From Saccharopolyspora erythraea NRRL 2338 (lineage in GTDB: Bacteria; Actinomycetota; Actinomycetes; Mycobacteriales; Pseudonocardiaceae): DNA of 64,000 nucleotides. The stretch covers positions 4,515,584-4,579,583 of the forward strand of contig NC_009142.1 in the NCBI RefSeq assembly GCF_000062885.1. Reading direction: 5' to 3'. Shown here piece after piece: positions 26,588-48,133 of this stretch. Below the pieces are notes generated by a model. That model saw only the letters and a program-made list of their open reading frames with translations, made no database searches and was not told the DNA's origin. Both the position numbers and the translations under genes were made by a program. Within the stretch, counting starts at the first letter, position 1, and each line of letters starts with the position of its first letter.

Positions 26588-26615
26588 TTGCCAACTAGAT
26601 GCCGCGCCCTATTAT
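26588..26615 (+). promoter_or_regulatory. Exporter promoter with operator-like site e
   Basis: TTGCCA (26588-26593), a 16-bp spacer and TATTAT (26610-26615) form a good housekeeping-type promoter. The spacer includes CTAGATGCCGCGCCCTA (26595-26611), a weak member of the CTAGAG operator family. A strong AGGAGG ribosome site follows before ATG 26644. Confidence 0.6.
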
Positions 26616-26643
26616 TGTGTTGCCTAACTGTTCAGGAGGTAAA

Positions 26644-29607: not shown

Positions 29608-29948
29608 CCCGCTCGACGGCGACGGCACGAGGCGTCGATGACCCGCCGCACCCGAGCGGATCGGCCGCAAGCGGCCGAATGGCCGAATGCCCGAGAACCG
29701 GAGACCGAAGACCGGGACTCCATGATTTTGCCGACGCAATCAGAACACGCGAAGCGCTTTCGGAGAATTGGCGGAATTCGAAGATCTCACCTCTCCCTGA
29801 TTCCCTCGAATGCCGGTTGCGCGCTAACCTCGGTCCCGAGCTCACAGCCATCGACGGACCACCCGGAGCCGCGCCGCGAAGCGCCGGCTCCGAGTCGCGC
29901 GCTCTGGGCGATGTTTCCGCTGAGGCCATTGATCATCTTGGGGGTTTC
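29608..29948. other. Gap upstream of the A-fragment/methyltransferase gene
   Basis: 341 bp, locally less GC-rich around 29720-29840. Frames are open but of poor quality. It probably holds a promoter; TAACCT at about 29833 is a possible -10. If the next gene starts earlier than I chose, for instance at ATG 29680, part of this region would be coding. Confidence 0.35.
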
Positions 29949-31445: not shown

Positions 31446-31452
31446 CGTCCGG

Positions 31453-31483
31453 GCCCGGCCGCCTGGTGCGCAGGCGGCCGGGC
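31453..31483. terminator. Strong bidirectional hairpin
   Basis: 13-bp perfect arms GCCCGGCCGCCTG and CAGGCGGCCGGGC with a 5-nt loop, 7 bp after the A/M gene stop and between convergent genes. There is no U tract, as is usual in actinomycetes. Confidence 0.8.
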
Positions 31484-31598
31484 GCCGTCGGCGTCCGCGA
31501 TGTCCCCTGGCGGACATCCGTGCTGTTCGCGATCGCGGTGTCGGAAGGCGGTTCCGCCCCCCACCCCCCACCGGCATGCGAGGTGAAAAGACAGGCAC

Positions 31599-32831: not shown

Positions 32832-34487
32832 TCAGACCCGGGCCGGCTCGTCGCCGCGGGTGGCCGTGAACACCTCGGTGGCCTGCTGCGCGAGCGCGCG
32901 CTTGTCGACCTTGCCCGCCGGCGTGAGGGGGAAGGCGTCCATCTCCAGCAGCACCTCCGGGAACTTGCGCGGCTCCAGGCCCTGCACGCGCAGGAACTCG
33001 GCCAGCTCCGCCACGTCGGGCACCGCGGCGCCCGGTACCGCGACCAGGCAGGCGGCGATGCGCTGCCCGAGGTCCGGGCACGGCACCGGCACGCACGCCA
33101 CGCTCAGCACCGACGGGTGCGCGGCGATGACGCCCTCGACCTGCGCGGGACTGATGTTGGAGCCGCCGCGGATGATGATGTCGCGTTTGCGACCGCTGAG
33201 GCGCAGCCGCCCGACCGGGTCGATCACGCCCAGGTCGCCAGTGCGGGCCCAGCCGTCCGGGGTCCGGTAGCGCTCGTTGAGCTCGGGCGCGTTGACGTAG
33301 CACATCGGCGACATCGGGCCGCGGGCCAGCACCTCGCCGACCTCACCCGGCGGCAGGTCCGCGCCCGAGTCGTCGACGATGCGGATGCTGCACACCGACG
33401 GGTTGGGCACGCCGACCGTCGTCTTCGCCGCATGCGGCGGGTCGTCGAGGCCGTTGTGGCAGTTCACCCCGTCCGCGGAACCGTAGAGGTTGATCAGGGT
33501 GCAGCCGAAGTCGGCCACGCAGCGGTCGACCGTCTGCGGGTCGATCAGCGAACCGCCGGTGATCAGCGCCTGCAGCGACGAGGTGTCGGTACCGGCGAAC
33601 TCCGGGCTGCCGATCATCCGCTGGAACATCGTCGGCACGCCCGCCAGGTGGGTGGGCCGGTGCTCACCGATGGCCCGCAACGCCTGGACGGGGTCGAACT
33701 TGCGTTGCAGCACCAGGGATCCGCCCAGCGCGCACAGCACGCCGAAGGTGCAGCAGGACCCGAACGACGAACCGAGCGGGATCAGGAACATGGCGCGCAT
33801 CGGCCGGCCCGGCCGCTGCAACCGCTTCAGGAACTGCCCCCGGCCACCGATGAGGGCGTTGTGCGAGTAGGCCACGATCTTCGGCTCGGACTCGGTGCCC
33901 GAGGAAACCAGGTACCGCACCGCGGTGTCGGGATCCGGGCTCGGCAGGTCGTCCAGATCGGCCGGCTCGGTCGCGAGCAGCTCGTCCACTGTGGTCGGAG
34001 CTTCCGCACCGTGGACCACGACGTGGCGCAGGTGCGGCAGTTCCGGCCGCAGCTCCGCCATGGTGGCGGCGAGGTCGACGTCGCCGTAGCGGGCGGGGAT
34101 GACGGTCACGACGGCACCGGAGCGGCGCAGCAGGGAGAGGACGTCGCGATGGCCGCGCCCGGTCGGGAAGGGCAGGACGGTCGCCCCCAGCGCCGCGGTC
34201 GCCAGCTCCACCGCGCACGCCAGCGCGGAGTTCGGCAGCTGGCAGGCCACTACCTCGCCGGCGCGCACGCCCAGGCCGCGCAGTCCCGCCGCCAGCCGCA
34301 GCGCCTTCTCCCGCAGTTGCGAGTAGTTCGTCACGCCGTCGTCGTCGAAGACCGCGGGCTGGTCGGGTTGCACGGCGGCCTTGCCCAGGAAGAGGTCGAA
34401 CACCGCCGCGCCGGGGTAGATGCCCTCCTCCGACCACAGGCGGCGCAGGTGCTGCGGTACGAGGTCTGGCAACGGCTGAGTGCTCAC
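32832..34487 (-). CDS. Acyl-CoA/acyl-ACP ligase (AMP-forming)
   Basis: 551 residues from GTG 34487, overlapping the CoA-transferase stop as GTGA, with GGAGG upstream. Adenylate-forming motifs: YLVSSGTESEPKIVAYSHNA (A3 loop, unusual TES in place of TTG), INLYGSADGVNCHN (A5), WARTGDLGVIDPVGRLRLSG (A7), RKRDIIIRGGSNISPAQVEG (A8) and LTPAGKVDKRAL (A10 with catalytic Lys). It activates a carboxylic acid with ATP. The substrate is not deducible, but a fatty or aryl acid feeding the following dehydrogenase fits. Confidence 0.9.
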   Translation of the reverse strand: MSTQPLPDLVPQHLRRLWSEEGIYPGAAVFDLFLGKAAVQPDQPAVFDDDGVTNYSQLREKALRLAAGLRGLGVRAGEVVACQLPNSALACAVELATAALGATVLPFPTGRGHRDVLSLLRRSGAVVTVIPARYGDVDLAATMAELRPELPHLRHVVVHGAEAPTTVDELLATEPADLDDLPSPDPDTAVRYLVSSGTESEPKIVAYSHNALIGGRGQFLKRLQRPGRPMRAMFLIPLGSSFGSCCTFGVLCALGGSLVLQRKFDPVQALRAIGEHRPTHLAGVPTMFQRMIGSPEFAGTDTSSLQALITGGSLIDPQTVDRCVADFGCTLINLYGSADGVNCHNGLDDPPHAAKTTVGVPNPSVCSIRIVDDSGADLPPGEVGEVLARGPMSPMCYVNAPELNERYRTPDGWARTGDLGVIDPVGRLRLSGRKRDIIIRGGSNISPAQVEGVIAAHPSVLSVACVPVPCPDLGQRIAACLVAVPGAAVPDVAELAEFLRVQGLEPRKFPEVLLEMDAFPLTPAGKVDKRALAQQATEVFTATRGDEPARV

Positions 34488-36385
34488 TGGAACCTCCAAG
34501 GAGAAGCGACCACAGCGCAACCGTGGTGCTGGAATACGTCTGCGAAGTCCTCGCGTCGCGGCAGGTCGGCGAGGTCGATCTCGACCTGGGCGGCGGGCAC
34601 CGCGTGGCGACCGAGCACCCGCTCCCACTCGTGGGCCGGCCGCGCGGCCAGCGCGGTCCGCAGCCTCTCGGTCAGGTCCGCCGGCCGTGTTCCCGGCGCC
34701 GGCGCCAGACCGGTCGCGGCGGTCAGGCGCTCGACCTCCTCCTCGTCGGCGCAGACCGCGAGCAGTCCGTCGGCGGTCCGGAAAACCTCGTCCAGTGCGG
34801 TGGATTCGGGGTTCGCCCCGGCGAGCCGCTCCGCCAGCAACGTCGTCGCGGCCGACAGCAACGACGTGTCGACGCGGCAGCCCGAGCCGTTGCGCCGCAC
34901 CGAGACGAGGCCGGCGAGGACTCCCTCGGCCGCGACGAAACCGCCGAGCACGTCCAGCAGCGTCATCAGCGACGGGTGCCGGTCCTCGCCGTCGGGCGTG
35001 ACGGCGTCTGCGACACCGGCGTGCGCCTGCACCATGAAGTCGGTGCCCAGCGGCGGCCGCTCCCCCAGCGCGCTGCCCCAGCCGGAGGCGTAGGCGTACA
35101 CCAGCCGCGGGTTGACCTCGTGCATGTGCTCGGCGTCCAGGCCGAACTGGGCGGCCTTGCCCGGCGCCCAGTTGTGCAGGAAGACGTCGGCGTCGCGGAC
35201 CAGCTCCAGCACCGACCGCTGCCCGGCGGGGTCCTTGATGTCGATCTCGACGATGCGCTTGGCGTGGTTGAGCGCGACGAACCGGGCCGAGACATCCCCC
35301 GCCATGGGCGGGATCCCGCGCAGCGGGTCGCCGCCCGGCGGCTCGATGCGGATGATCTCGGCGCCCAGCAGCGACAGCAGCCGGGTGGCCATCGGGCCCT
35401 GCACCCGCCGGGAGGACTCCACGATCCGCATGCCGGCGAGCGGGAGCTCCCCTGCCGACAGCCGATCGGAGTGCGCGGCCGGCTCAGCCGGGACCGCAGC
35501 GGGGGCGAACTCCCACGGCGCACCGCTTCCACGGGAGGGCCACAGGTCCGGGTCCGCGCGGCGCTCGGCCACCGTCCGGACCCGGCACACGCTCATCCCG
35601 GCCCGCTCGGCGATCTCGGTGATGCCCGCGAAGTCGTGCTCTCCCAGTGCCTCGGCGAGCCCGGGGGCCAACGGGCTGACCGCGCCGGGATAGCGCAGCA
35701 CGAACGGGCGCCAGCTCCGGCTGACCGCCTCGATCGGCGCGCCGATCTCGGCCCAGAACCGCTGCCACGGCTCGACGTCCAGGGCCTCCAGCTCGAAGAG
35801 CACCCCGTCGGACGAGGCGAACGGCGGACGCGGCCTGCCGTCCTGCGCTCCCGGCAGCAGCTTCTCGGCGTCCTCGGAGGCGCTGGCCGCACCGATGTAC
35901 TGCGCGACGGACATGACCGCCGCGTGCTCGAGCGCCAACTCGACAGCACCGACCGGCGCTCCCCGCAGCCGGGCGAGGGTCGCGGCGAGCACACCCTGCA
36001 CCGCGGTGACACCGGCCAGCACCGACGCGTAGTCCACGCCTATGCGGCGGACGGCGGGTTCGGCGCGGCTGTGCACCGACATCAGACCGCAGCGGGCCTG
36101 CGCGGTGCTTTCGCGGAACACGCGGTCCGGGTCGGTTCCGCAGGCCCCGCGCAACCGCAGCTCGACGGAGCCGTCCGGGCCGGAGAGCGTGGTGACGCCG
36201 GGATCGCACTGCGCGGCGGCAGCTCTGCCGGCGCCGAGCAGGCCGAGGTGCGCGTCGATCAGGCGCTGCGTCACCCCGAAACCGGTCGGAGAGTCGTCGC
36301 CGCGCGCGTACTGCATGCCCGAAAGCGGGCCGTGGTCGAACGGAGCAAGTTCCTGCACCGCGTTGAGGAACGGGCCTGCGGTCAC
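34484..36385 (-). CDS. CaiB/BaiF (class III) CoA-transferase, double-domain
   Basis: 633 residues, about 1.5 times a normal class III CoA-transferase. The C-terminal half (about 310-633) is the recognisable FRC/CaiB domain: LPLAGMRIVESSRRVQGPMA, LLGAEIIRIEPPGGDPLRG, DADVFLHNWAPGKAAQFGLD, GTDFMVQAHAGVADAV and LMTLLDVLGGFVAAEGVLAG with the expected Asp. The N-terminal half (about 90-300) looks like a second, degenerate copy. Such enzymes move CoA between carboxylates. It is first in the operon with the ligase and dehydrogenase, driven by operator site g. Confidence 0.85.
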   Translation of the reverse strand: MTAGPFLNAVQELAPFDHGPLSGMQYARGDDSPTGFGVTQRLIDAHLGLLGAGRAAAAQCDPGVTTLSGPDGSVELRLRGACGTDPDRVFRESTAQARCGLMSVHSRAEPAVRRIGVDYASVLAGVTAVQGVLAATLARLRGAPVGAVELALEHAAVMSVAQYIGAASASEDAEKLLPGAQDGRPRPPFASSDGVLFELEALDVEPWQRFWAEIGAPIEAVSRSWRPFVLRYPGAVSPLAPGLAEALGEHDFAGITEIAERAGMSVCRVRTVAERRADPDLWPSRGSGAPWEFAPAAVPAEPAAHSDRLSAGELPLAGMRIVESSRRVQGPMATRLLSLLGAEIIRIEPPGGDPLRGIPPMAGDVSARFVALNHAKRIVEIDIKDPAGQRSVLELVRDADVFLHNWAPGKAAQFGLDAEHMHEVNPRLVYAYASGWGSALGERPPLGTDFMVQAHAGVADAVTPDGEDRHPSLMTLLDVLGGFVAAEGVLAGLVSVRRNGSGCRVDTSLLSAATTLLAERLAGANPESTALDEVFRTADGLLAVCADEEEVERLTAATGLAPAPGTRPADLTERLRTALAARPAHEWERVLGRHAVPAAQVEIDLADLPRREDFADVFQHHGCAVVASPWRFQ

Positions 36386-36731: not shown

Positions 36732-37775
36732 ATGGCCGGCTACGAGCGGGCGCTGGAGCGATCACTGCTCGGGGTGAACACGACGCTGGAGGAGGTCGGC
36801 GACCGGTTCCCGATGTTCGCGCGGCATCCCGGCGGCACCTGGACCACGTCTCGCCGGGGTTCGTGGACCGGCGGCTTCTGGGTGGGCCTGCTGTGGTTGC
36901 GCGCCGCCGTCACCGGCGAACGGGAGCACCTGCGGGCGGCATCGGACTGGACGGAGTCGCTGCTGCCGCGCGCCGACGACTCGACGTCGACCAGGGCCAT
37001 GACGTTCTGGTACGGCGCGGCGCTCGGGCACCTGCTCACCGGCGACGCACGCGCCGCCGAGGTCGCGCACATCGGCGCCAAGGCGCTCGCGGCGGACTTC
37101 CGGCCCGAGCTGGGCATCATCCCGATGGGCACGGCGCTCGGTACCGGGGAGCACGGGCTGCGCGAGTCCTTCGTGGACCCGTTGGCCGCGCTCGTGCGGC
37201 TGCTGCCGTGGTCCGACGGCGCCCACACCGCCCTGGCCCGCGCCCACCTCGACGAGCACGTCCGGCTCTGCCTCGCCGCCGACGGCGCGGTGTCGGCGCA
37301 TCTGCGCTGGGACGACGCGACTTCTCGGCTCCGCCCCGAGCCGCGACCAGGCACCTGGTCGCGGGGACAGGCGTGGGCACTGCTGGGCCTCGCCGAGGCC
37401 GCGACGGAACTGGACGGCGCGTACCTGCCGCTCGCGCACTCGGTCGCCGAGCACTGGCTCAGAACCCGGCCGCACCAGCCGCCACCGGACCGCACGGATG
37501 GCCCACCGGCCGAACCCGACACCTCCGCGGCGGCGATCAGCGCCTACGCGCTGATCACGCTCGGCCGCGGGTGCGAGTCCGGCCGGCGCTACCGGGACTT
37601 CGCGATGGCCACCGTCGACGCGCTGGTCGACGAGCACCTCACCGGGTCCGGGGCGCTGCTGCACGGCAGCTACCGCACCGGGCCGGACGGCACCGAGTCC
37701 GTGGAGACGGTGTGGGGGAACTTCTTCCTCACCCTCGCACTGGCACAGCTCACCGGAGCGGTCGGTCCGCTGTGA
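36732..37775 (+). CDS. GH88/unsaturated glucuronyl hydrolase-like protein
   Basis: 347 residues forming an alpha6/alpha6 barrel of the GH88/GH105 type: FARHPGGTWTTSRRGSWTGG and FWVGLLWLRAAVTGE near the N-terminus, TFWYGAALGHLLTGD in the middle, GTWSRGQAWALLGLAEA and EPDTSAAAISAYALITLG later, matching the repeated helix hairpins. Known members hydrate unsaturated uronyl groups of oligosaccharides. No polysaccharide lyase is nearby, and the promoter shares the cluster operator, so a role on a glycosylated or vinyl-ether-like intermediate is conceivable. Catalytic Asp positions were not verified. Confidence 0.75.
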   Translation: MAGYERALERSLLGVNTTLEEVGDRFPMFARHPGGTWTTSRRGSWTGGFWVGLLWLRAAVTGEREHLRAASDWTESLLPRADDSTSTRAMTFWYGAALGHLLTGDARAAEVAHIGAKALAADFRPELGIIPMGTALGTGEHGLRESFVDPLAALVRLLPWSDGAHTALARAHLDEHVRLCLAADGAVSAHLRWDDATSRLRPEPRPGTWSRGQAWALLGLAEAATELDGAYLPLAHSVAEHWLRTRPHQPPPDRTDGPPAEPDTSAAAISAYALITLGRGCESGRRYRDFAMATVDALVDEHLTGSGALLHGSYRTGPDGTESVETVWGNFFLTLALAQLTGAVGPL

Positions 37776-37836: not shown

Positions 37837-38442
37837 TCAGCTCAGGAGGTGGAAGCGCAGGGTGCTCACAGCCCAGCGCTCCCACTCCGGAACCGACCAA
37901 CCGCGGTCGACCACGAGCAGCTCGAACACCTCCGGCCCCAGGATCGTGAACGAGATGTCCACGGCGCGCTGCAACGTCAGCCCCTTCGGCAGCGCGTGCT
38001 TCTTGCGCAGCGCCAGCAGGAAACGGCGTTGCACGATGCGGCGCTGCTCCTGGTTGTTGGACCACAGCTCGGCGACGGTCGGGTCGGTGTCGGAGGCCCT
38101 GGACAGCACGTTGAGCAGCGAGGCCACCCGCCGGTAGACCTTGGCGGTCCCCTTCACCTGGAGCTCGAGGTGGCGGACCGGGTCGGGCTCCTCGATCACC
38201 TCGCGCACCCAGGCCCGCTCCAGGGTGGGCACCGGCTCGTCGTCACCGGCCACGGTCAGGTCGATCAGCCGCTTGAGGATGTTGGTCTTGTTCTGGAAGG
38301 TGAAATACACCGTCTGGACCGCGACACCCGCCTTCTTGGCGATCATGTCCATAGTGGCGCTGGAGTACCCGCGCTCGACGAACAGGACCAGCGCAGCGTC
38401 GAGGATCTTGTCAGCGGCACCCTTAGCCTTCTTCGCGGCCAT
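37837..38442 (-). CDS. TetR-family repressor, candidate master regulator of the cluster
   Basis: 201 residues from ATG 38442 (AAGGAG ribosome site). The N-terminal helix-turn-helix is typical: ADKILDAALVLFVERGYSSA, TMDMIAKKAGVAVQTVYFTF and NKTNILKRLIDLT. The C-terminal ligand domain (60-201) is unassigned. It is divergent from the thiamine-diphosphate enzyme gene, whose promoter holds the only perfect CTAGAG-N5-CTCTAG palindrome; TetR dimers often bind such palindromes in the intergenic region beside their own gene. That link is inference, but it makes this protein the best candidate to control the eight or nine related sites. Confidence 0.9.
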   Translation of the reverse strand: MAAKKAKGAADKILDAALVLFVERGYSSATMDMIAKKAGVAVQTVYFTFQNKTNILKRLIDLTVAGDDEPVPTLERAWVREVIEEPDPVRHLELQVKGTAKVYRRVASLLNVLSRASDTDPTVAELWSNNQEQRRIVQRRFLLALRKKHALPKGLTLQRAVDISFTILGPEVFELLVVDRGWSVPEWERWAVSTLRFHLLS

Positions 38443-38932
38443 GTGGCTCCTTGCGTCGCGCCGGATCGGGAGGGGGGAGGAGGTGGACATCAATCTAACT
38501 CACCGTCATGGATGAACGGGGCCGACACCCGGCCCCGCGCGGCCCGGTGCGATCACTGGCCAGTGCGTTCCTACTCCGCGAGACGGTGCATGTGGAAGAG
38601 CCCGCCGGACGCCCGATGACCGGGATCGACGTCCTTCCCACCGCGCGCGGTGCTCCCGCGCTCCGGCGCCTGCGGCCGTGAGCCGGGATCGGCAGCAGGC
38701 GCGCGGTCACGCTCGGTGGTCGCGCACTTTCGGTCCGCATCGGACCCGGACGCGCCACGAGTACATGGCTTCGGCTTTCTGAATCGATTCACTGGTGAGC
38801 CCATGCAGGTGACTTCCCGGCCGCGGCGGCACCCCGCCCGATCGGCCCACCAGAGTGCTTGACTAGAGTGTTGCTCTAGTGCTTTGGTAACGACATCCGT
38901 GGTCGTGCCCGAACCGAAGGAGAGGCCGCCGC
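38443..38932. promoter_or_regulatory. tetR/thiamine-diphosphate enzyme divergent region
   Basis: 490 bp with no supported gene. Operator site i is near the right end. A second AT-rich patch, GCTTTCTGAATCGATTCACT around 38772-38791, contains the near-palindrome TGAATCGATTCA and could be part of the tetR promoter. Confidence 0.5.
38863..38879 (+). promoter_or_regulatory. Cluster operator site i (perfect palindrome)
   Basis: CTAGAGTGTTGCTCTAG: perfect 6-bp arms with a 5-bp spacer, 54 bp before the start of the thiamine-diphosphate enzyme gene. A TTGACT hexamer (38859-38864) overlaps its left edge, as expected of a repressor site blocking -35. Confidence 0.75.
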
Positions 38933-41356
38933 ATGGCCGTTGAGCACGACTCGCAGGCACCTTCGCGCCGCCTGCTCCTCGCGGTGGTCGCCGACGACGC
39001 CCGTTCCGACTCCGCCGAATCGGCATCCGCCGCGCTGGAGCACCTGACCGGAGCACCCGGCCCGGCCCCGCAATCCGCGCAACTGCACGAGGTGGTCCGC
39101 CGGGCGCGCAGGTTCCTCGGCCGCGCGGTGCCCGAGGCCGAGCCCGCGCTCGTCGTCGCCGACTCGCTGGACGACCTGGCCGCGAAGCTGGCTGCCGACC
39201 CGGACCCGCGGCCGGCGACGCTGACCCTGCTGGTGCTCGACCACCGCGAGTTCCGGGACTCGGCGATCGCGGCGGCGGCCCGCGTCGAGGAGCGGCTGGC
39301 CAAGCTCACCGCCGCCCTGCCCGAGCGGGTGAGCTTCGCCCCCTCCCCCGCCACCGTCCAGCTGCACACCGATCCACCCGCGCAGGCCCGCATCGGCCTC
39401 GGGCGGTTCGCGCCGCGCTGGCCGGCCCCGGCGCGGTGGGCCGCCGTGGCCGACCTGGTCTGCTCGTTCACCGACTCGGTGCAGCTGGAGCAGATGTCGC
39501 GGCTGCATATCCCGGCACCGCCGACGACGCTGGCCACCGCGATCGCCCGATTCCTCGACGAACGGGCCGGCACCGCCTGGGGGCTGCACTGCTACACCGG
39601 CTCGGTCGTCGCGCGCGCGATCGACGACCTGGAGCGCCATGCCTCCGCGAACGGGAATCCCGTGCTGCGGGGGCCGAGCGAGCACAGCCTGGCGTGCGCG
39701 ATGCACGCGCGCTGGCAGCTCGACGGCGCTCCCGGGCTGGTCGTGGTGACCAGCGGGATGATCGACGAGTTCCGGGGGACGCTGGCCAACCTGCGTTCGT
39801 CGCGGGCGAAGGGCTTCATCCTGTGCGCCGACTCCAAGCCCGGCCAGTGGTACCCGTTCCAGGGCACCATCACCGCCGCGGAGGACTCCCGCGAGGTGGC
39901 CCGGGCCCGAGGGCTGCAGGTGGTGCACATCGAACACACCTCCCGGATGGCCGAGGGGCTGGCCGCCGCCTTCGCCGCGTACGACGCCGGGCAGGGCCCG
40001 GTCGTGCTGTTCGCGACCAAGGAAGTTCTCGACAGCGCCAAACCCGTCGCGATCAACCGCGGGGAGCCCGCTCCCGCGCGGGCGTCGGCGGTGGTGCCGG
40101 GCTTCGACGAACTGCTGCGGCTACTCGAAGGCGAACCCGTCCGGCTGCTGTGCCAGCCCGGTGCGCTGCGCCCCGGGGCCGCCGACGCGTTGCGGGAGCT
40201 CGCGCGCCGGACGGGGCTGGCACTGGCCGACTCGCTGACGCAGCCGGGCGTGGTTTCCCGCTACCACGGGGGAAACCACGTTCCGGAGTACCTCGGAACC
40301 ATGAGCCTGTACGGAACATCACCGCGGGTCCACGAGTTCCTGCACCACGACGACCGCCCGCGTCCTGCCGACGAGCAGGCGCTGCTGTTCCTCGGCAGCC
40401 GGATCGAGGAGATCGACACCCCGCTCTCGCCCCGCAACCTCCAGCGGTCCCGGATCGTGCAGGTGGCCGAGGACACCGGCGACCACGCGCCGTTCACCGA
40501 CCTCGGCCTGGCCTGCCCGGCCCCGGATCTGCTCACCGCACTCCTGGAGCGCGTCGAGGTCGATCCCGCCGTGCTGGCGGCGCGGCGTGCGGCGATCGAG
40601 TCCACGAGGGACTCCTTCTCCGACGTCGTCGGGCTGGTGCCGGCGCTGCCGATGACCCCGAACTACTTCTTCCGGCAGCTGCACGACGTCCTCGACGAGC
40701 TCATCCGCGAACGCGGCTACCGCTACACCGGTGTCTACGACGTCGGGCGAGCCGGACTCTCTGCGGTCTGCGACCTGCCGAGGACCGGCCCCGGGTTCTC
40801 CGGCTGGGCCGGGCGGGCGCTGATGGGCGACGCGCTGCAGTCGGTGCCCGCGATCGCGCTCACCCGCGACGACAACGTGCTGGCCTTCGTCGGCGACGGC
40901 GCGTGGGCGATGGTGCCCGACATCCTGCCGACGCTGGTGCAGCAGATCGCGGCCGACGGCCGCCCGCACCGCGGCAACCTCACGGTCTTCCGGTGCGTCA
41001 ACGGCGGCCACTCCATCATCCGCACCTACCGGGAAGCGCACCGCCCGTCCGCGGTCAGCGCGCAGACCGGCGTGCTGAGCTTCGTCGACGAGGACTGGAC
41101 CCGGCGCGTCGACGACGTCACCGTCCGCCACCGGCGGATCATCTCCGCCGAGCCCGGCGAGCTGGCGGCTCTGCTGGCCGAGCCGGCGGCCATCAACCTC
41201 TGCACGGTCCAGCTGGCGCACAACAACGAGGGTGACGGCCTCGGGCTGGCCGGCCTCGGGTGGCAGCGCGACGTCCTCTCCGAACGCGGCCTGGCGTTCA
41301 CCGCGTCGAACCGACGGCCCGCGCGGCCGGACAGTCCGATGAGGACAGACGCATGA
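38933..41356 (+). CDS. Thiamine-diphosphate-dependent enzyme, PigD-like
   Basis: 807 residues from ATG 38933 (AAGGAGAGG). After an N-terminal extension (about 1-190) come a PYR domain with a candidate catalytic Glu in GPSEHSLACAMHARW (about 248), a central TH3-like domain (about 400-520, RLLCQPGALRPGAADAL) and a PP domain with the ThDP/metal motif FVGDGAWAMVPDILPTLVQQ (Gly-Asp-Gly about 653) ending at VNGG (about 688). It belongs with acetolactate synthase-like enzymes but is much longer. PigD, of similar size and also next to a PigE, adds an acetyl unit from pyruvate to an enoyl acceptor. Adjacency to the PigE-like gene supports the same Stetter-type reaction; other C-C ligations are possible. 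Confidence 0.82.
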   Translation: MAVEHDSQAPSRRLLLAVVADDARSDSAESASAALEHLTGAPGPAPQSAQLHEVVRRARRFLGRAVPEAEPALVVADSLDDLAAKLAADPDPRPATLTLLVLDHREFRDSAIAAAARVEERLAKLTAALPERVSFAPSPATVQLHTDPPAQARIGLGRFAPRWPAPARWAAVADLVCSFTDSVQLEQMSRLHIPAPPTTLATAIARFLDERAGTAWGLHCYTGSVVARAIDDLERHASANGNPVLRGPSEHSLACAMHARWQLDGAPGLVVVTSGMIDEFRGTLANLRSSRAKGFILCADSKPGQWYPFQGTITAAEDSREVARARGLQVVHIEHTSRMAEGLAAAFAAYDAGQGPVVLFATKEVLDSAKPVAINRGEPAPARASAVVPGFDELLRLLEGEPVRLLCQPGALRPGAADALRELARRTGLALADSLTQPGVVSRYHGGNHVPEYLGTMSLYGTSPRVHEFLHHDDRPRPADEQALLFLGSRIEEIDTPLSPRNLQRSRIVQVAEDTGDHAPFTDLGLACPAPDLLTALLERVEVDPAVLAARRAAIESTRDSFSDVVGLVPALPMTPNYFFRQLHDVLDELIRERGYRYTGVYDVGRAGLSAVCDLPRTGPGFSGWAGRALMGDALQSVPAIALTRDDNVLAFVGDGAWAMVPDILPTLVQQIAADGRPHRGNLTVFRCVNGGHSIIRTYREAHRPSAVSAQTGVLSFVDEDWTRRVDDVTVRHRRIISAEPGELAALLAEPAAINLCTVQLAHNNEGDGLGLAGLGWQRDVLSERGLAFTASNRRPARPDSPMRTDA

Positions 41357-41402
41357 GCGGTTGCCGCGGCCGACCGCGACTTCGCGCCGATTGGAGAAGC
41401 TG

Positions 41403-43877
41403 GTGAAGTTCGGTTTCCTCGCGCACCCGGTGAACACCGGGCAGCGCAACTACGTACGCGCGGCGGCACTGCTGTCGAGCATGGCGGACGAGCGGACCGG
41501 TCGCGCACCGTCCGGCGCCGCGCGGCACACCGTGCCCATGCCGATGTTCGGGACCGTGGTCTCGGCCACCGGCCACCGCTGCGAAGGCGACCTGCGGTAC
41601 CTGCCCCACACCGCCGAGGACCTGCTGCGGCGCGCGACCGACGCCGTCGACCACGTCGTCGCCCAGGTCGAGGACCTGCGGCGCGCGGGTGCTCAGCTGG
41701 TGGGGCTGGGCGGGGCGACCTCGATCGTCGGCAACCGCGGTCTCACCACGCAGCGACGCGTCGACGTGCCGCTGACCAGCGGGAACTCCCTGACCACGTA
41801 CTCGGCGCACGAGTTGCTGCGCACGGTCATCGCGCGGCTGGGCCGGCGTCCGTCCGACGTCGAGGTCGGCATCGTCGGCTTCCCCGGTGCGATCGGCCTG
41901 GCGATGGCCAGGCTGCTGCTCGACGACGGCTGCCGGCTGCACCTGGTGCACCGCAAGGGCCGGATGCGACCCGAGCAGCTGCTGGACGAGCTGCCCGCCG
42001 CCGCGCACGACCGGGTCACCATCGGCGACGACGTCGCCGAATGCCTGCGGCGCACACGCCTGATCGTGGCGGCCTCGTCGGCGGGCGGCCTCATCGACTG
42101 CGACGACCTGCGACCCGGCTCGGTCGTGGTCGACGTCGCGCTGCCCCGCGACGTGCGGCGTCCCGTTCGCGAGCGCCGCGACGTGCTCGTGCTGGACGGC
42201 GGCCTGGTCTCGGCTTCCGACGCGGTGGTGCTCGACGGAATGGAGCTGGCTACCAGCGAACAGATCAACGGCTGCCTGGCCGAGACCGTCGTGCTCGCCC
42301 TCGAGGAGCGCGCCGAGTCGTTCAGCCTCGGCCGGGAGCTCGACCCCGGACGCGTGCGCGAGATCGGCGAACTCGCCCGGCGGCACGGCTTCCTGCCGAG
42401 CGCGCCGTCGAGCTGGGGCCGGCTCGTCAGGCTCGACCGCATCGACGAGCTGCCCGGCTGGTCCGCCGAGCGGCCGGACCCGGCCGAGTCGACCAGGCGC
42501 CGCTTCCGCGACAACGTCAACCCGCCGCTGGCCGGCTTCTACGCGGTGCACGGCATGGACCGCGTGTTCACCCGCGGCAGCGGCAGCACGCTGACCACCG
42601 CCGACGGCGTGGAGTACCTGGACTTCATCGGCGGCTACGGCAGCCTGAACGTCGGGCACAACCACCCCGCGGTCACCGCCGCGGTCGGGCAGTTCCTGAC
42701 GGCCGGAGAGCCCACGTTCGTCCAGTACGCCTCCATCCCCCACCGGACCGCCGAGCTTGCCGAGCGGCTGTGCGAGATCGCGCCGGGCGGGATGCGGCGG
42801 GCGTTCTTCGGCAACTCCGGAGCGGAGGCGGTCGAGGCGGCGCTGAAGCTGGCCAGGGCCGCCACCGGCCGCACCCGCTTCGTGCACGCCGAGAACAGCT
42901 ACCACGGCAAGACCTTCGGGGCGCTGTCGGTGACCGGCCGCGACCACTACCGCGACCCGTTCCGGCCGATGGTGCCCGACTGCGTGGGCGTGCCCTTCGG
43001 CGACGAGAACGCCCTGCGCGAAGCGATCGCGGGTGCGGCGGCGTTCATCGTCGAGCCCGTGCAGGGCGAGGGCGGCGTGGTTCTCCCGCCGCCCGGCTAC
43101 CTCACCGCGGCGCAGCGGATCTGCCGCGAGGCGGGCGCGGTGTTCATCGTGGACGAGATCCAGACCGGGCTGGGGCGCACCGGTGCGATGTTCGCCTGCG
43201 AGCACGAGGGCGTCGAACCCGACGTGCTGTGCCTGGCGAAGTCGCTGTCGGGCGGGCTGGTCCCGATCGCCGCGACGCTGTCCACCGCCGAGGTGTGGGA
43301 CGCCGCCTACGGGTCGTCGTCGGGCTCGCTGCTGCACACCTCCACCTTCGGCGGCGGCAACCTCGCCTCGGTGGCCGCGCTGGCGACTCTGGACCTGATC
43401 GAGTCGGAGAAGCTGGCGGCGCGCGCCGAGGTGATGGGTCGGCGCCTGCGCGACGCGCTGACCGAGGCGTGCGCGCCGTTCGAGTTCGTGGGCGAGGTCC
43501 GCGGCATCGGGCTGATGAACGCGATCGCCTTCGACGCCCGCTACGACGGGGCCGTGCGCACCGCGGTCGAGGACATGGCCTCGCGGTTGCCGGGTGACTT
43601 CCGGGCGATCGCCGAGCTCCTGCCCGACCCGGTGCGGGAGGTGCTGCGGCAGGCAGGCTCCAGCGTCGAGACCGCGCTCGGCGACCTGCTGTGCCTGCGC
43701 TTCGTGGCCGCGATGGGCCGCGACCACCGGATCCTCACCTTCGTCACCGCCAACCGCAACCAGGTCGTGCGCCTCCAGCCGCCGCTGGTGGTCACCGAGG
43801 CCGAGATCGACCGGTTCGCCGAATCCGCCCGCGCGGTCTGCGAAACCGCAACGGGCATCCACAACAACTGGGAGTGA
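41403..43877 (+). CDS. PigE-like fused acyl-thioester reductase and class III aminotransferase
   Basis: 824 residues from GTG 41403 (VKFGFLAHPV, GGAG upstream). Residues 1-340 are an AAR-like acyl-ACP reductase: LVGLGGATSIVGNRG, VPLTSGNSLTTYSAHELL, Rossmann VGIVGFPGAIGLAMA (about 157) and INGCLAETVVLALEE with the thioester Cys (about 290). Residues about 360-824 are a class III aminotransferase: FFGNSGAEAVEAALKLARA, IVDEIQTGLGRTG, CLAKSLSGGLVPIAA with the PLP Lys (about 613), and TFGGGNLASVAAL. The order and both domains match Serratia PigE and tambjamine TamH, which turn an acyl thioester into an aldehyde and then an amine. It is two bases ahead of the ACP gene. Confidence 0.92.
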   Translation: MKFGFLAHPVNTGQRNYVRAAALLSSMADERTGRAPSGAARHTVPMPMFGTVVSATGHRCEGDLRYLPHTAEDLLRRATDAVDHVVAQVEDLRRAGAQLVGLGGATSIVGNRGLTTQRRVDVPLTSGNSLTTYSAHELLRTVIARLGRRPSDVEVGIVGFPGAIGLAMARLLLDDGCRLHLVHRKGRMRPEQLLDELPAAAHDRVTIGDDVAECLRRTRLIVAASSAGGLIDCDDLRPGSVVVDVALPRDVRRPVRERRDVLVLDGGLVSASDAVVLDGMELATSEQINGCLAETVVLALEERAESFSLGRELDPGRVREIGELARRHGFLPSAPSSWGRLVRLDRIDELPGWSAERPDPAESTRRRFRDNVNPPLAGFYAVHGMDRVFTRGSGSTLTTADGVEYLDFIGGYGSLNVGHNHPAVTAAVGQFLTAGEPTFVQYASIPHRTAELAERLCEIAPGGMRRAFFGNSGAEAVEAALKLARAATGRTRFVHAENSYHGKTFGALSVTGRDHYRDPFRPMVPDCVGVPFGDENALREAIAGAAAFIVEPVQGEGGVVLPPPGYLTAAQRICREAGAVFIVDEIQTGLGRTGAMFACEHEGVEPDVLCLAKSLSGGLVPIAATLSTAEVWDAAYGSSSGSLLHTSTFGGGNLASVAALATLDLIESEKLAARAEVMGRRLRDALTEACAPFEFVGEVRGIGLMNAIAFDARYDGAVRTAVEDMASRLPGDFRAIAELLPDPVREVLRQAGSSVETALGDLLCLRFVAAMGRDHRILTFVTANRNQVVRLQPPLVVTEAEIDRFAESARAVCETATGIHNNWE

Positions 43878-43879
43878 TC

Positions 43880-44167
43880 ATGGACCGCAAGGAGATCTTC
43901 GAGCGCATCGAGCAGGTGCTGGCCGAGCAGCTGGGCATCCCCGCCGAGCAGATCACCGAGGAGGCCGACCTGCGCGAGGACCTCGGCATGGACTCGCTGG
44001 ACCTGGTCGAGCTGGTCAGCGCGCTGGAGGACGAGGTCGGCATGCGCGTGGAGCAGAGCCAGCTGGAGGGCATCGAGACCGTCGGGCACGTCATGGAGCT
44101 GACGCTGGACCTCGTCGCCCGGCTGGCCACCGCCTCGGCCGCCGACAAGCCGGAAGCGGCGTCGTGA
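43880..44167 (+). CDS. Acyl carrier protein
   Basis: 95 residues from ATG 43880 (GGGAG ribosome site). A free-standing type II ACP: IFERIEQVLAEQLGIPAEQI, then LREDLGMDSLDLVELVSALE with the phosphopantetheine Ser in DSL (about residue 38), and EDEVGMRVEQSQLEGIETVG. It lies two bases after the reductase-aminotransferase and overlaps the ketosynthase start as GTGA, so these three are tightly coupled. It is the probable carrier of the acyl substrate of the reductase domain. Confidence 0.95.
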   Translation: MDRKEIFERIEQVLAEQLGIPAEQITEEADLREDLGMDSLDLVELVSALEDEVGMRVEQSQLEGIETVGHVMELTLDLVARLATASAADKPEAAS

Positions 44168-45405
44168 CCGGCCTGCACGAGGTCGTCGTGACCGGCATGG
44201 GCGTGGTCAGCCCGCTGGGGGTCGGCACCGAGCAGTTCCACGCCAACCAGCAGCTCGGCCGCAGCGCCGTCCGGCGCGTCACCGCCTACGACCCGGGCGA
44301 CGACCCGGTGCGCATCGCGGCCGAGGTGGACCTGCCCGAGCAGTTCCAGTTCACCCGGCGCGACCAGCTGCGCACCGACCGGTGCACGCAGCTGGCGATC
44401 GTCGCCGCCCGGCTGGGCGTCGAGGAGGCCAAGCTCGACCTCGCCGCGTCCGACACCTCGCGCATCGGCGTGGTCATCGGCTCCGGCATGGGCGGCGTGG
44501 GGACCTGGGAGCGCAACTGCCTGGCCCTGCACGAGTCGGGGGTGCGGGCGATGCGCACCAAGACCGTCCCGATGTCGATGATCAACGACCCGTCGGCGTC
44601 CATCGCGATCCGCTACGGCACCACCGGCCCCTGCACGACGGTCACCACCGCCTGCGCCTCGGGCGCCGACGCACTGGTGGCGGCGGCGCAGATGATCCGC
44701 CTCGGCGAGGCCGACGTGGTGCTGGCGGGCGGCGCCGAGGCGCCGCTGTCGCGCAGCGTCCTGGCCGGCTTCGCGCGCCTCGGCGCGCTGTCGGAGGACA
44801 ACGACGCGCCCGAGAGCGCGTGCCGTCCGTTCAGCGCCGACCGGACGGGCTTCGTCATGGGCGAAGGCGCGGCCGTGCTGGTCCTGGAGTCCGCCGAGCA
44901 CGCCACCGCGCGCGGCGCGCAGGTGCGGGCGCGGATGGCCGGCTACGGGCGCTCCGCCGACGCCTACCACGTGACGATGCCGCACCCCGAGGCCGCCGGC
45001 GCGCGGGCCGCCATCGTCGCGGCGCTGCGCGACGCCGGTGCCCAGCCGTCCGACGTCGACTTCGTCAACGCCCACGGCACCGGCACCGCCCTCAACGACC
45101 ACGCCGAAGCCCTCGCCATGCGCGCGGTGTTCGGCACCGGCGTGGAGCGGATCCCGGTCACCGCGACCAAGTCGCTCACCGGGCACTCGCTCGGCGCGGC
45201 GGGGGCGGTCGAGGCCGTGGCCACCGTGCAGGCGGTGTCCAGCGGGGTCATCCCGCCCACGGCCAACCTCCGGGTGCCCGATCCCGAGCTCGGCATCGAC
45301 GTGGTCCACGGCGGGCCGCGCGAGGCGCGCATCAACCTGGCGCTGTCGAACTCGTTCGCCTTCGGCGGGCACAACGTCGTGCTCGCCTTCGCCCCACCCC
45401 TGTAG
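44164..45405 (+). CDS. FabF-type beta-ketoacyl-ACP synthase II
   Basis: 413 residues from GTG 44164. All active-site elements are present: TTVTTACASGADALVAAAQ (Cys), [19 protein letters not shown] (His), TATKSLTGHSLGAAGAVEAV (Lys/His) and LALSNSFAFGGHNVVLAFA (His). It condenses malonyl-ACP with an acyl primer, so it extends a chain on the adjacent ACP. No ketoreductase, malonyl transferase or enoyl reductase gene accompanies it, implying help from primary fatty acid synthesis. There is no chain-length-factor partner, so it is not an aromatic type II PKS. Confidence 0.95.
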   Translation: MTGLHEVVVTGMGVVSPLGVGTEQFHANQQLGRSAVRRVTAYDPGDDPVRIAAEVDLPEQFQFTRRDQLRTDRCTQLAIVAARLGVEEAKLDLAASDTSRIGVVIGSGMGGVGTWERNCLALHESGVRAMRTKTVPMSMINDPSASIAIRYGTTGPCTTVTTACASGADALVAAAQMIRLGEADVVLAGGAEAPLSRSVLAGFARLGALSEDNDAPESACRPFSADRTGFVMGEGAAVLVLESAEHATARGAQVRARMAGYGRSADAYHVTMPHPEAAGARAAIVAALRDAGAQPSDVDFVNAHGTGTALNDHAEALAMRAVFGTGVERIPVTATKSLTGHSLGAAGAVEAVATVQAVSSGVIPPTANLRVPDPELGIDVVHGGPREARINLALSNSFAFGGHNVVLAFAPPL

Positions 45406-45435
45406 CGCTCCGACGACACACCTCGAGGACCGGCC

Positions 45436-47643
45436 ATGACCGCAACGCCCATGCGATCGCAACAACAGCAGAAGCCGCCATTGCTGGCCCGGGTGGGCGC
45501 GGGAGCTGCACGCCGCTTCCGCGCGGTCCTCGTGCTGGCCGCACTCGTGTGCGGGGCGGCGCTGGCGCTCAGCGCCGGCGTCAACGACCAGCTCGCGGGC
45601 GGCGGCTACACGCCGTCGGACTCCGAGTCGGCGGTGGCGCAACGGACGCTGAGCGAGCGGTTCCAGGGCGGCACCCCGAACCTGGTGCTGGTGGCCGAGC
45701 CGGCGGCGGCGCTGGACGCCCCCGAGACAGTCGACGCGGCGCGGCGGTTGCAGCAGGCGGTGCGGGACTCCGGCAAGGCCGACTGGGTGCACTCGTTCTG
45801 GGAGACCGGCGACCCGGCGCTGGTCGCCCCGGACGGCCGCGCCGCGATGTTCGCGGTGCGCCTCAGCGGCGAGGAGGACCACGCGCAGCGCGCGTCGCGC
45901 GACCTGGTGCCCGAACTGCAGCGCGACTTCCCCGGACTGCGCCTGTCGGCCACCGGTGAGGCGCAGGTCAACGCCGAGGTCAACGAGCAGAGCCAGGTCG
46001 ACCTGGTGTGGGCCGAGCTGCTCGGCGCCCCGCTGGTCGGCCTGTTGCTGCTGCTGGTGTTCCGCACCCCGCTGGCGGCGCTGCTGCCGCTGGCGATCGG
46101 CGCCGTCTCGGTGACCCTCACGCTGGCGGTGCTGACGCTGCTGACCAAGGTCACCGACGTCTCGATGTTCGCCATGAACATCACCACCGCGCTGGGCTTC
46201 GGCCTCGCGGTGGACTACAGCCTGTTCATCGTCACCCGCTACCGCGAGGAGCTCGCCGCGGGCCGCACGATGGACGAGGCCATCGCCACCAGCACCGCCA
46301 AAGCCGGCCGCACCGTGCTGTTCTCCGCGGTGACCGTCGCGGTGTCGCTGGCCGCGCTCCTGGTCTTCCCGCTGTACTTCCTGCGGTCGCTGGCCTACGC
46401 GGCACTGCCGGTGGTGCTGATCGCGGGCATCGCGAGCATCGTCGTCCTGCCCGCGCTGCTGCGGCTGACCGGCCGGCACCTCGCGCGCTGGGACGTGCTG
46501 AGCCGGTTCATCGGACCACCTCGCACCGAAGGCCCGATGTGGCACCGGATCGCCACGTCGGTCATGCGGCGCCCGCTGCTCACGTCGCTGCCGGTGATCG
46601 CGCTGCTGCTGGTGTTCGCGATCCCCTTCGCCGACGTGCGGTTCGGGCTCACCGACGAACGCGTGCTGCCGCCCGACGCCGGGTCCCACCGCGCCGCCAC
46701 GATCGTCGACGAGCGGTTCCCGCAGGCCAAGCAGACCACTGTGGAGGTGCTGCTCACCGGCGCGGGATCGCAGGAGACGGAGCGCTACGCACAGGAGCTC
46801 TCGCAGCGCGAAGGCGTCACCGGTGTCCAGGCCCCCGGCGCGGTCTACGTCGAAGGCGCACCGGTCGCTCCGGGGCAGCCGGCGCGCACCAGCGACGAGA
46901 CCGCCTGGATCACGATGGCCGTCGACCACGAGCCCTACGACACCGCGGCCGAGGACCTGGTGCGCTCCGTGCGGGCGGCCCCGGCCCCCGGCGAGCTGGC
47001 CGTCGCCGGCGACACGGCCGTGCTGGTCGACACCAAGGCGAGCCTGCTGGAACGGCTCCCGGCCGCGCTGGCGCTGCTGGGCCTGAGCACCCTGGTGCTG
47101 CTGTTCCTGTTCACCGGCAGCGTGCTGATCCCGTTCAAGGCCATCCTGATGAACCTGCTCAGCCTGACGGCCAGCTTCGGTGCCGCGGTCTACGTGTTCC
47201 AGTACGGCAACCTGCGGTGGCTGGTCGGGGACTTCACCGTGACCGGGCACATCGAGGTCACCATCCCGGTGCTGATGTTCTGCATCGCGTTCGGGCTTTC
47301 GATGGACTACGAGGTCTTCCTGCTGTCCCGGATCCGCGAGCAGTACCTGATCGGCGGCCACAACGAGGAGGCGGTGGCCATCGGCCTGGAGCGCACCGGC
47401 CGCCTGGTCACCGCGGCGGCGGGCATCGTCGCGGCGGTGCTGCTGGTGCTGGCCACCTCGCAGCTCTCCATCCTCAAGCTGCTGGGCGTCGGGCTGACGC
47501 TGGCGGTGGTCGTCGACGCCGCGCTGGTGCGGGCGGTCATCGTGCCGGCGTTCATGCGGCTGATGGGCCGGGCCAACTGGTGGGCACCGCCCTTGCTGCG
47601 CCGGGTGCACCGCAGGATCGGGATCTCGGAGTCGGGGGACTGA
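45436..47643 (+). CDS. MMPL/RND-superfamily transporter
   Basis: 735 residues, from ATG 45436. Twelve transmembrane segments in the 1+5 / 1+5 pattern of actinobacterial MMPL proteins: an N-terminal helix (VLVLAALVCGAALALSAGV), a large extracellular domain (about 45-185), then LGFGLAVDYSLFIVTRYREE; the second half has FCIAFGLSMDYEVFLLSRIR. The DY-type Asp/Tyr pairs are the proton-relay residues. MMPL proteins export lipids or lipidic metabolites. Its position between ketosynthase and dehydratase suggests export of the fatty product of this operon. Confidence 0.93.
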   Translation: MTATPMRSQQQQKPPLLARVGAGAARRFRAVLVLAALVCGAALALSAGVNDQLAGGGYTPSDSESAVAQRTLSERFQGGTPNLVLVAEPAAALDAPETVDAARRLQQAVRDSGKADWVHSFWETGDPALVAPDGRAAMFAVRLSGEEDHAQRASRDLVPELQRDFPGLRLSATGEAQVNAEVNEQSQVDLVWAELLGAPLVGLLLLLVFRTPLAALLPLAIGAVSVTLTLAVLTLLTKVTDVSMFAMNITTALGFGLAVDYSLFIVTRYREELAAGRTMDEAIATSTAKAGRTVLFSAVTVAVSLAALLVFPLYFLRSLAYAALPVVLIAGIASIVVLPALLRLTGRHLARWDVLSRFIGPPRTEGPMWHRIATSVMRRPLLTSLPVIALLLVFAIPFADVRFGLTDERVLPPDAGSHRAATIVDERFPQAKQTTVEVLLTGAGSQETERYAQELSQREGVTGVQAPGAVYVEGAPVAPGQPARTSDETAWITMAVDHEPYDTAAEDLVRSVRAAPAPGELAVAGDTAVLVDTKASLLERLPAALALLGLSTLVLLFLFTGSVLIPFKAILMNLLSLTASFGAAVYVFQYGNLRWLVGDFTVTGHIEVTIPVLMFCIAFGLSMDYEVFLLSRIREQYLIGGHNEEAVAIGLERTGRLVTAAAGIVAAVLLVLATSQLSILKLLGVGLTLAVVVDAALVRAVIVPAFMRLMGRANWWAPPLLRRVHRRIGISESGD

Positions 47644-47644
47644 C

Positions 47645-48133
47645 GTGGAGATCGACCCCGCGGTCATCGGACGCTCGTACCCCGGCGTGGCACCGCATCC
47701 GGTCGGGGCGGGCGAGATCGCCCGCTTCGCCGACGCGATCGGCGACCCCCACCCGGCCTACCGCGACGCCGAGGCGGCGCGGGCGGCCGGGCACCCGGCG
47801 GTCGTGGCACCACCCACCTACCCGATCGTGCTGTGCGGGGCGGCGCTGGAACGACTCATGGCCGACCCCGAGCTCAACCCTGGCGGCCTGGCGATGGTGC
47901 ACCGGGGGCAGAGCTTCGACATCCGGCGCCCGATCCGCGCGGGCGACCACCTCCAGGTCACCCCCACCATCACCGGCCTGCGAGTACTCGCCGGCGTACC
48001 GGCGCTCACCGTCACCACGGATATCTCCACAGTGGACGGAGAACCGGTGTGCACGGCTACGTCGTCGGTCGCGCTGATCCCGGCCGATGCGGCGTCATCG
48101 GACGCGGTCGGGGCCGGATCCGGGTCGGCGTAG
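47645..48133 (+). CDS. MaoC/HadA-like dehydratase (hot-dog fold)
   Basis: 162 residues from GTG 47645, one base after the MMPL stop. It resembles the FAS1-DH/MaoC N-terminal family (HadA): EIARFADAIGDPHPAYRDAE, VVAPPTYPIVLCGAALERLM, LAMVHRGQSFDIRRPIRAGD and VTTDISTVDGEPVCTATSSV. It lacks the D-x4-H catalytic hydratase motif typical of MaoC proper, so, like mycobacterial HadA/HadC, it may need a partner or serve a binding role. It could supply the enoyl thioester acceptor for the thiamine enzyme. Confidence 0.82.
   Translation: MEIDPAVIGRSYPGVAPHPVGAGEIARFADAIGDPHPAYRDAEAARAAGHPAVVAPPTYPIVLCGAALERLMADPELNPGGLAMVHRGQSFDIRRPIRAGDHLQVTPTITGLRVLAGVPALTVTTDISTVDGEPVCTATSSVALIPADAASSDAVGAGSGSA

Follow-up and report, generated by a model that had tools for sequence, protein, structure and literature searches.

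A PigD/PigE-like gene pair with its own carrier protein and ketosynthase in Saccharopolyspora erythraea: a tentative pyrroline pathway that may be coupled to thiocarboxylate formation

The stretch of DNA analysed here (the window) covers 64,000 nucleotides of the genome of the erythromycin producer Saccharopolyspora erythraea NRRL 2338. Between positions 38933 and 48133 it carries, all on the forward strand, genes for a PigD-like thiamine-diphosphate (ThDP) enzyme, a PigE-type reductase-aminotransferase, a free acyl carrier protein (ACP), a FabF-type ketosynthase (KS), an MMPL-family transporter and a HadA-like protein, an arrangement that was first described from the letters of the DNA (the sequence-only reading) and is borne out by both coordinates and profile searches. 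The region of shared genes is wider, since genes in common with other PigD/PigE loci reach leftwards to approximately 23861; the thioacid, dehydrogenase and exporter genes on this side had been overlooked by the sequence-only reading. Gene families, catalytic residues, gene order and the conservation of that order were established directly. Our best reading, which we advance tentatively and with slightly less than even confidence, is that an orphan biosynthetic cluster spans approximately 23.9-48.1 kb of the window and directs a pyrroline pathway coupled to thiocarboxylate formation.

The PigE profile NF053554 matches the second gene product at 1229.7 bits (cut-off 850) over positions 1-835 of its 837, so that the proposed whole-length match to PigE stands. 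The best solved match is 4ppm, which is PigE itself (PMC9594044, excerpt), and the N-terminal domain resembles both 4ppm and the cyanobacterial acyl-ACP reductases (AAR; 6jzq). Translation likely begins at GTG 41403, with a GGAG site ahead of it, rather than at TTG 41361, which opens the open reading frame (ORF); Serratia PigE begins at the residue that matches the GTG start. The AAR-type active-site Cys305 and the pyridoxal-phosphate Lys627 (ORF numbering from 41361) are invariant in 71 PigE rows, five of 76 (L104, L107, L109, L110 and L111) having been dropped. PigE-containing lysates reduced the thioester and transaminated the aldehyde (PMC8341465).

Over 619 aligned residues, the 807-residue PigD-like protein and Serratia marcescens PigD share 40.5% identity; against the NCBIfam PigD profile NF053552 (cut-off 950) the protein scores 664.3 bits. 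Of the two profile searches suggested by the sequence-only reading, that with PigE thus exceeds its cut-off, whereas that with PigD falls short. Residues Glu250, which we take to serve ThDP, and GDGA 654-657 are invariant across 27 chosen PigD rows. An AlphaFold model built on a 27-row alignment (pLDDT 83.4, pTM 0.82) returns the acetolactate-synthase fold in Foldseek (E 5.6e-20, 15% identity), and no solved structure matches the protein by sequence at E 0.01. To judge from its secondary structure, an N-terminal stretch of about 165 residues lies in front of the ThDP core. We then placed 79 PigD rows and ten ThDP proteins of the same genome in one tree (89 rows; a quick method, with long branches), in which the ten fall outside the PigD clade (SH-aLRT 99); the enzyme does not, therefore, group with acetolactate synthases, a point on which the sequence-only reading had made its model depend. 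The genome holds 14 such ThDP proteins, four of which were left out, and two of 81 PigD rows were dropped: L022, which is partial, and L104, with interrupted frames. In the latter assembly, from Serratia rubidaea, the pigD and pigE frames both appear interrupted.

This protein is probably SeAAS of S. erythraea, which reportedly shows Stetter activity in vitro and is 39% identical to PigD (Kasparyan et al. 2014), close to our measured 40.5%. The enzyme has, therefore, probably been assayed already, in work reportedly confined to in vitro chemistry; the chemistry of the enzyme would then be known, and the pathway not. SeAAS of S. erythraea is cited in PMC8341465 and PMC11848910 (excerpt of the latter). 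Serratia PigD places an acetyl unit from pyruvate on the beta carbon of an enoyl thioester (PMC8341465), and PigD-like proteins form a subclass of ThDP decarboxylases in PMC12247030 (excerpt). Counting the S. erythraea genome itself, PigD family matches occur in 2 of 2 genomes of the genus, 3 of 397 of the order and 7 of 394 of the class (one of them weak), while at E 1e-150 PigE is found in the S. erythraea genome alone among the 394; these searches scored the best few candidates per genome, and absences in them are non-exhaustive.

The ACP and KS that follow form a free carrier protein and dedicated type II KS pair, as had been claimed. Ser39 of the ACP motif DSL and Cys164, His304, Lys336 and His341 of the KS are invariant in 15 of 15 actinomycete rows, and the KS scores 479 bits with NCBIfam fabF (just under the cut-off of 494) and 465 bits with PRK07314 (cut-off 387). 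Further downstream, the MMPL transporter has homologues at 7 of the 14 other actinomycete PigD/PigE loci. The HadA-like protein, present as had been stated and found again in genome G001, has none at these 14 loci, and its best match is the N-terminal half of fused hydratases, presumably the non-catalytic half. The divergent TetR gene has homologues at 7 of the 14; a scan of 38300-39000 found no promoter or terminator.

How the pair is placed elsewhere was assessed in one scan with an alignment of the PigE N-domain, which gave 74 named loci, selected, therefore, by PigE. PigD lies directly upstream of PigE and on the same strand in 71 of them, so that chance does not account for the pairing, and the order PigD-PigE-ACP-KS is kept in all 14 actinomycete loci, which extends to other genomes the arrangement seen in the window. 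Besides actinomycete rows, the PigD tree holds 26 rows of the prodigiosin type, three of which have no PigC in range, and a third clade of 30 rows. None of the 24 loci carrying both PigC and PigB has the ACP, KS, transferase, ligase or dehydrogenase of the window at the main thresholds; at E 1e-10, 11-12 of the 24 give 23-26% matches to the ligase or dehydrogenase, for which PigI and PigA of these loci are presumably responsible. In contrast, transferase, ligase and dehydrogenase occur together in 25 of the remaining 33 loci, and all 25 are proteobacterial and belong to the third, non-prodigiosin clade (25 of its 30 members). In Micromonospora (L039), genes for MMPL, CoA-transferase, ligase, dehydrogenase, PigD, PigE, ACP and KS are contiguous on one strand, and Streptomyces caatingaensis (L045) has part of the transferase/ligase/dehydrogenase set by its pair, the fetched range ending inside the set. 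The window ligase is 51% identical to that of L039 and 49-56% to those of the 25 third-clade loci; for the dehydrogenase, L039 and L045 give 48-52% and the 25 third-clade loci 30-49% (about 30% in L088 and L103).

Table 1. Features of the locus, in window coordinates
Feature	Coordinates	Strand	Basis
MFS (major facilitator superfamily) exporter (putative), left-most gene in common with PigD/PigE and thioacid loci	23861..25075	+	homologues
DHA2-type MFS exporter (putative), membership uncertain	26599..28029	+	96% in G001, 45% in L043
SufS-family cysteine desulfurase homologue, possible sulfur donor	28228..29607	+	TIGR01979
Acyl-CoA dehydrogenase family protein	31599..32819	-	Pfam
AMP-binding acyl ligase, PdtJ/PtmA3 position	32832..34628	-	Pfam AMP-binding
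Two-domain type III CoA-transferase, PdtI/PtmU4-like	34484..36385	-	Pfam CoA_transf_3, two stretches
GH88-like protein	36732..37775	+	Pfam GH88 24.1 bits, below cut-off 26.6
TetR regulator, divergent from the PigD gene	37837..38493	-	homology
PigD-type ThDP-dependent Stetter enzyme (predicted), 807 aa	38933..41356	+	NCBIfam NF053552, fold, tree
PigE: N-terminal AAR-like acyl-ACP reductase, C-terminal class III aminotransferase	41403..43877	+	NF053554, 4ppm, 6jzq
Free acyl carrier protein	43880..44167	+	Pfam PP-binding
FabF-type ketosynthase	44164..45405	+	NCBIfam fabF, PRK07314
MMPL-family transporter, putative exporter	45436..47643	+	Pfam MMPL
HadA-like hot-dog protein	47645..48133	+	profile matches

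The genes to the left of the TetR regulator (Table 1) point to possible sulfur chemistry. A thioacid cassette consists of an acyl-CoA synthetase and a two-domain type III CoA-transferase (PMC6006322, excerpt; also PMC1779556, excerpt), and when we looked for such a transferase within two genes of an acyl-CoA synthetase, the two were found to adjoin in the window. In an alignment with a formyl-CoA transferase, Asp449 of the window protein falls on the Asp within GYDFVVQA, which we take to be catalytic there (the alignment did not include PtmU4). In a tree of the 41 transferase rows that passed a length filter, the window copy and its sister join 25 proteobacterial PigD/PigE-linked copies (98/99), and a further long branch (L134) falls within this group. 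The SufS-like protein, one of nine such matches in the genome, scores 237 bits with TIGR01979 (cut-off 475) and retains the Lys227 and Cys378 motifs. Homologues of the left-most MFS exporter occur at 7 of the 14 actinomycete loci (43-45% identity), 24 of the 30 third-clade loci (38-60%, some cut by the end of the locus) and none of the 24 prodigiosin loci, and those of the GH88-like protein at 21 of 30, 1 of 14 (L045) and 0 of 24, respectively. At another site the genome encodes a second two-domain CoA-transferase, again with an adjoining ligase (L144; G000:C1:3556982-3558496). Window positions 29638-31636, which separate the SufS-like gene from the dehydrogenase gene, hold ORFs with a methyltransferase-like stretch, 90% identical in G001 over most of the length, and a class II 3-deoxy-D-arabino-heptulosonate 7-phosphate synthase (675 bits, above cut-off) is encoded at 18132-19865.

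A further locus of this kind, from Pseudomonas flavescens (L053:2063-20638), places PigD/PigE in a siderophore-like cluster with AraC, a TonB receptor and an O-methyltransferase, alongside CoA-transferase, ligase, dehydrogenase, MFS and, by Pfam, ThiF-rhodanese genes; inspection by eye adds JAMM-like and ThiS-like proteins, the latter with a GG end. Its gene order resembles that of the pdt cluster of P. fluorescens F113, pdtCKPELMFGHIJON (PMC3570484, excerpt), in which pdtL and pdtM are candidate counterparts of PigD/PigE. The L053 ThiF-rhodanese has no match in the window, and the only Prok-JAB match of the S. erythraea genome lies far outside it, at C1:1326151. The window, therefore, lacks the ThiF-rhodanese (PdtF) and JAMM (PdtG) pair of clusters for pyridine-2,6-dithiocarboxylate (PDTC); ThiS was not searched for.

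Other loci returned by the searches are recorded here in their own right. Seven actinomycete PigD relatives have no PigE in the fetched stretch (L034-L038 of genus g120, L023 and L025); L025 and L034-L038 show dehydrogenase matches of 31-32% nearby, and such loci contain, by eye, hydroxyacyl-CoA dehydrogenase-like and sugar-type genes. The three loci outside the 71 encode distant PigE-N-domain proteins with ACP and KS matches in the locus and no PigD: L109 (10001-14257), a Clostridia metagenome-assembled genome (MAG) with a full-length PigE match at 29%, L110, also a MAG, and L111, an Anammoxibacter MAG. Short proteins with VWDELKVWDEL-type repeats are encoded downstream of PigD-PigE-ACP-KS in Streptomyces (L044:14370-14594, L049:14320-14526 and L068:6298-6636), and that of L044 has no Pfam match.

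Searches of the window and of the flanking 20-40 kb return neither PigB nor PigC (no individual searches were made for the bipyrrole genes PigF-PigN), in agreement with the earlier claim that PigC is absent, and the PigB-PigC pair of a prodigiosin cluster is thus lacking. With Serratia PigB as query, the whole genome yields three matches, which are 44-65 residues long (E 1e-4 to 9e-4); not one is full-length or lies in the window. Since there is no full-length PigB in the genome, the product is predicted to be a 1-pyrroline whose ring is not oxidised in the manner of prodigiosin.

From these elements we propose the following route. The FabF-type KS would make or extend an acyl chain bound through a thioester to the free ACP (or to CoA), and at least some of the ketoreductase and dehydratase activity would come from other enzymes of the cell. 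With pyruvate as the donor, the PigD-like enzyme would then acetylate the beta carbon of the alpha,beta-enoyl thioester (a Stetter reaction), PigE would reduce the thioester to an aldehyde and transaminate it to the amine, and the gamma-amino ketone would close to a 2-methyl-3-substituted 1-pyrroline, without ring oxidation of the prodigiosin type. The ligase, two-domain CoA-transferase and dehydrogenase may activate a carboxylate, desaturate it and convert it to a thiocarboxylate, with cysteine-derived sulfur arriving through the SufS-like protein or the sulfur carriers of the cell. Finally, the MFS and MMPL proteins may export the product, plausibly a metal-binding molecule. We infer all of these reactions in this strain, as well as the substrate, the pyrroline, the thiocarboxylate, its export and its metal binding. 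A bolder version appears rather unlikely to us: that the product is a metal chelator consisting of a thiocarboxylate-bearing 1-pyrroline or pyrrole, that the dehydrogenase stands in for PigB by oxidising the ring in the form of a CoA thioester, and that the same hybrid logic operates in pseudomonads.

Several observations weigh against the coupled pathway. Judged by its profile score, the first enzyme would be PigD-like and not the prodigiosin PigD equivalog, and purified PigE yielded no product in PMC8341465. No ketoreductase is found among the annotated cluster genes, and the HadA-like protein, proposed earlier as a dehydratase, has Tyr at the position of the HadB-type catalytic His and would need a HadB-type partner. 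The SufS-like gene is 93% identical in G001 and otherwise meets only a 28% match (L075) among the loci searched. Only 2 of the 14 actinomycete PigD/PigE loci have both ligase and dehydrogenase, and 1 of 14 the CoA-transferase (fetched 10 kb), and the PigD/PigE-linked transferase copy of Micromonospora L039 falls outside the group of the window copy. Furthermore, expression arrays showed no relevant activity of the pke polyketide synthase genes (PMC2206050, excerpt), and excerpts of PMC7752772 report that no pke product was detected in 50 media; according to the same excerpts, pke is active in a producer strain, and deletion of pkeA1-A4 caused no obvious change in growth or morphology.

The strongest competitor, which we consider somewhat less probable than the coupled pathway, holds that PigD, PigE, ACP and KS make a 2-methyl-3-alkyl-1-pyrroline and that the neighbouring MFS, GH88-like, dehydrogenase, ligase and CoA-transferase genes are an independent thioacid operon. 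The transferase, ligase and dehydrogenase genes do lie on the opposite strand, and ligase and dehydrogenase are not in range at 12 of the 14 actinomycete loci. In 296 class genomes (S. erythraea counted among them), searches that scored the best few candidates per genome, and whose absences are thus non-exhaustive, found the transferase in 12 and the MFS protein in 9, and six genomes besides S. erythraea carry both on one contig within 3 kb. Five of these six loci were fetched (L161-L165; L162 ends early at a contig edge): all five have MFS, transferase and ligase genes, 4 of 5 have the dehydrogenase and the GH88-like gene, and none has PigD or PigE. The thioacid set is, therefore, not specific to PigD/PigE, which weakens the coupling; the recurrence of the GH88-like and dehydrogenase genes in these sets lowered our estimate for the coupled pathway and raised that for its competitor. 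The set in S. erythraea could thus be an independent neighbour. Against this, the set accompanies PigD/PigE in two phyla: the genes are contiguous in L039, and a single fetched locus holds them in 25 of the 30 third-clade members. The argument for coupling in S. erythraea depends on gene order in other clusters. Two of the sets without PigD/PigE (L162:4443-11731 and L165:4197-13830) lie, by eye, near metal-ABC-transporter-like genes (L162 has a binding protein, a permease and an ATPase, L165 a single ATPase), and are possible thiocarboxylate metallophore operons.

The genes from PigD to HadA form the left part of the product-less pke cluster, the limits of which have been given as SACE_4128-4145 (PMC3827479, excerpt). 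A 3481-aa polyketide synthase (PKS) at 72414-82859 (window numbering) has the same length as SACE_4140 PkeA2 (length from PMC3359211, excerpt), and counting genes back from it, assuming one small gene between 48133 and 49411, makes the PigD-like gene SACE_4130 and the divergent TetR gene SACE_4129, in agreement with the naming of SACE_4129 as a TetR (PMC3827479, excerpt). By this counting, the published limits end at the GH88-like gene and leave the transferase, ligase, dehydrogenase and MFS genes outside. These limits imply that PigD and PigE might serve the modular PKS by providing a starter, a tailoring step or the amine unit of a macrolide, a role that we regard as improbable. In favour of this role, the pair adjoins pke in S. 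erythraea, the arrangement is syntenic in G001, and a type I PKS match lies upstream in five Streptomyces loci (L044, L049, L052, L056 and L091). However, PkeA1 begins with a KSQ domain (SAQSS) and PkeA4 ends in a thioesterase, so that both chain ends are occupied and the PKS needs neither a pyrroline starter nor release by PigE, and at the nine other actinomycete loci PkeA4 matches nothing but the resident KS within the fetched ranges, some of which are short.

Least well supported are two further proposals. It is very improbable that the main activity of the PigD-like enzyme is acyloin (2-hydroxy ketone) synthesis, with PigE making a simple amine: the acetolactate-synthase fold, the seven PigE-less relatives and the addition of PigD to the aldehyde carbon when an aldehyde is offered (PMC8341465, citing earlier work) fit this idea, but PigD attacks the beta carbon of thioesters and enones (PMC8341465) and adjoins a thioester reductase in 71 loci, even though these were chosen by PigE. 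The pyrrole model of the sequence-only reading, with the flavin amine oxidase at 20959-22263 as PigB, is barely credible, since this flavoprotein, although syntenic in G001 and only about 17 kb away, shares just 42-79 FAD-binding N-terminal residues with 5 of the 24 PigB-bearing loci, has no homologue at the 14 actinomycete loci and is not PigB-like by sequence; no full-length PigB is found in the genome.

The coupled pathway recalls three known systems. With the 2-methyl-3-amylpyrrole branch of Serratia prodigiosin biosynthesis (PigD, PigE and PigB) it shares adjoining PigD and PigE genes in the same order and with the same catalytic residues; it differs in the missing PigB and PigC matches, the dedicated ACP and KS and the separate PigD clade. 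TamH of tambjamine biosynthesis is not known to have a PigD partner. It is likewise a reductase-transaminase fusion acting on acyl-ACP, with its domain order reversed relative to the window PigE (PMC9594044, excerpt). As in the cassettes for thioplatensimycin, PDTC and thioquinolobactin (PMC6006322 and PMC1779556, excerpts), an acyl ligase adjoins a two-domain type III CoA-transferase; in contrast to these, the window has no ThiF-rhodanese or JAMM gene, and the set adjoins PigD/PigE and a dehydrogenase. Two known compounds were rejected as the product: nocarpyrroline A of Nocardiopsis, a nitrile-pyrroline with a proposed proline route (PMC9967698, excerpt), and PDTC, for want of a ThiF-rhodanese in the window and because PigE chemistry would leave an unsubstituted ring carbon beside the nitrogen, which dipicolinate does not have.

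The enzyme pair is, therefore, of a known kind, while its coupling to an ACP-KS pair and a thioacid set, like the combination of a pyrroline with a thiocarboxylate, did not turn up in searches of an open-licence library, outside which most subscription papers lie. Attempts to find the product of this cluster have failed, and the locus offers chemical clues to it; for the strain, a finished genome and genetic tools are available. More broadly, PigD/PigE may be a portable pyrroline module, used in three lineages of which one alone makes prodigiosin, and in S. erythraea it points to an undiscovered small molecule that is predicted to combine a pyrroline with a thiocarboxylate.

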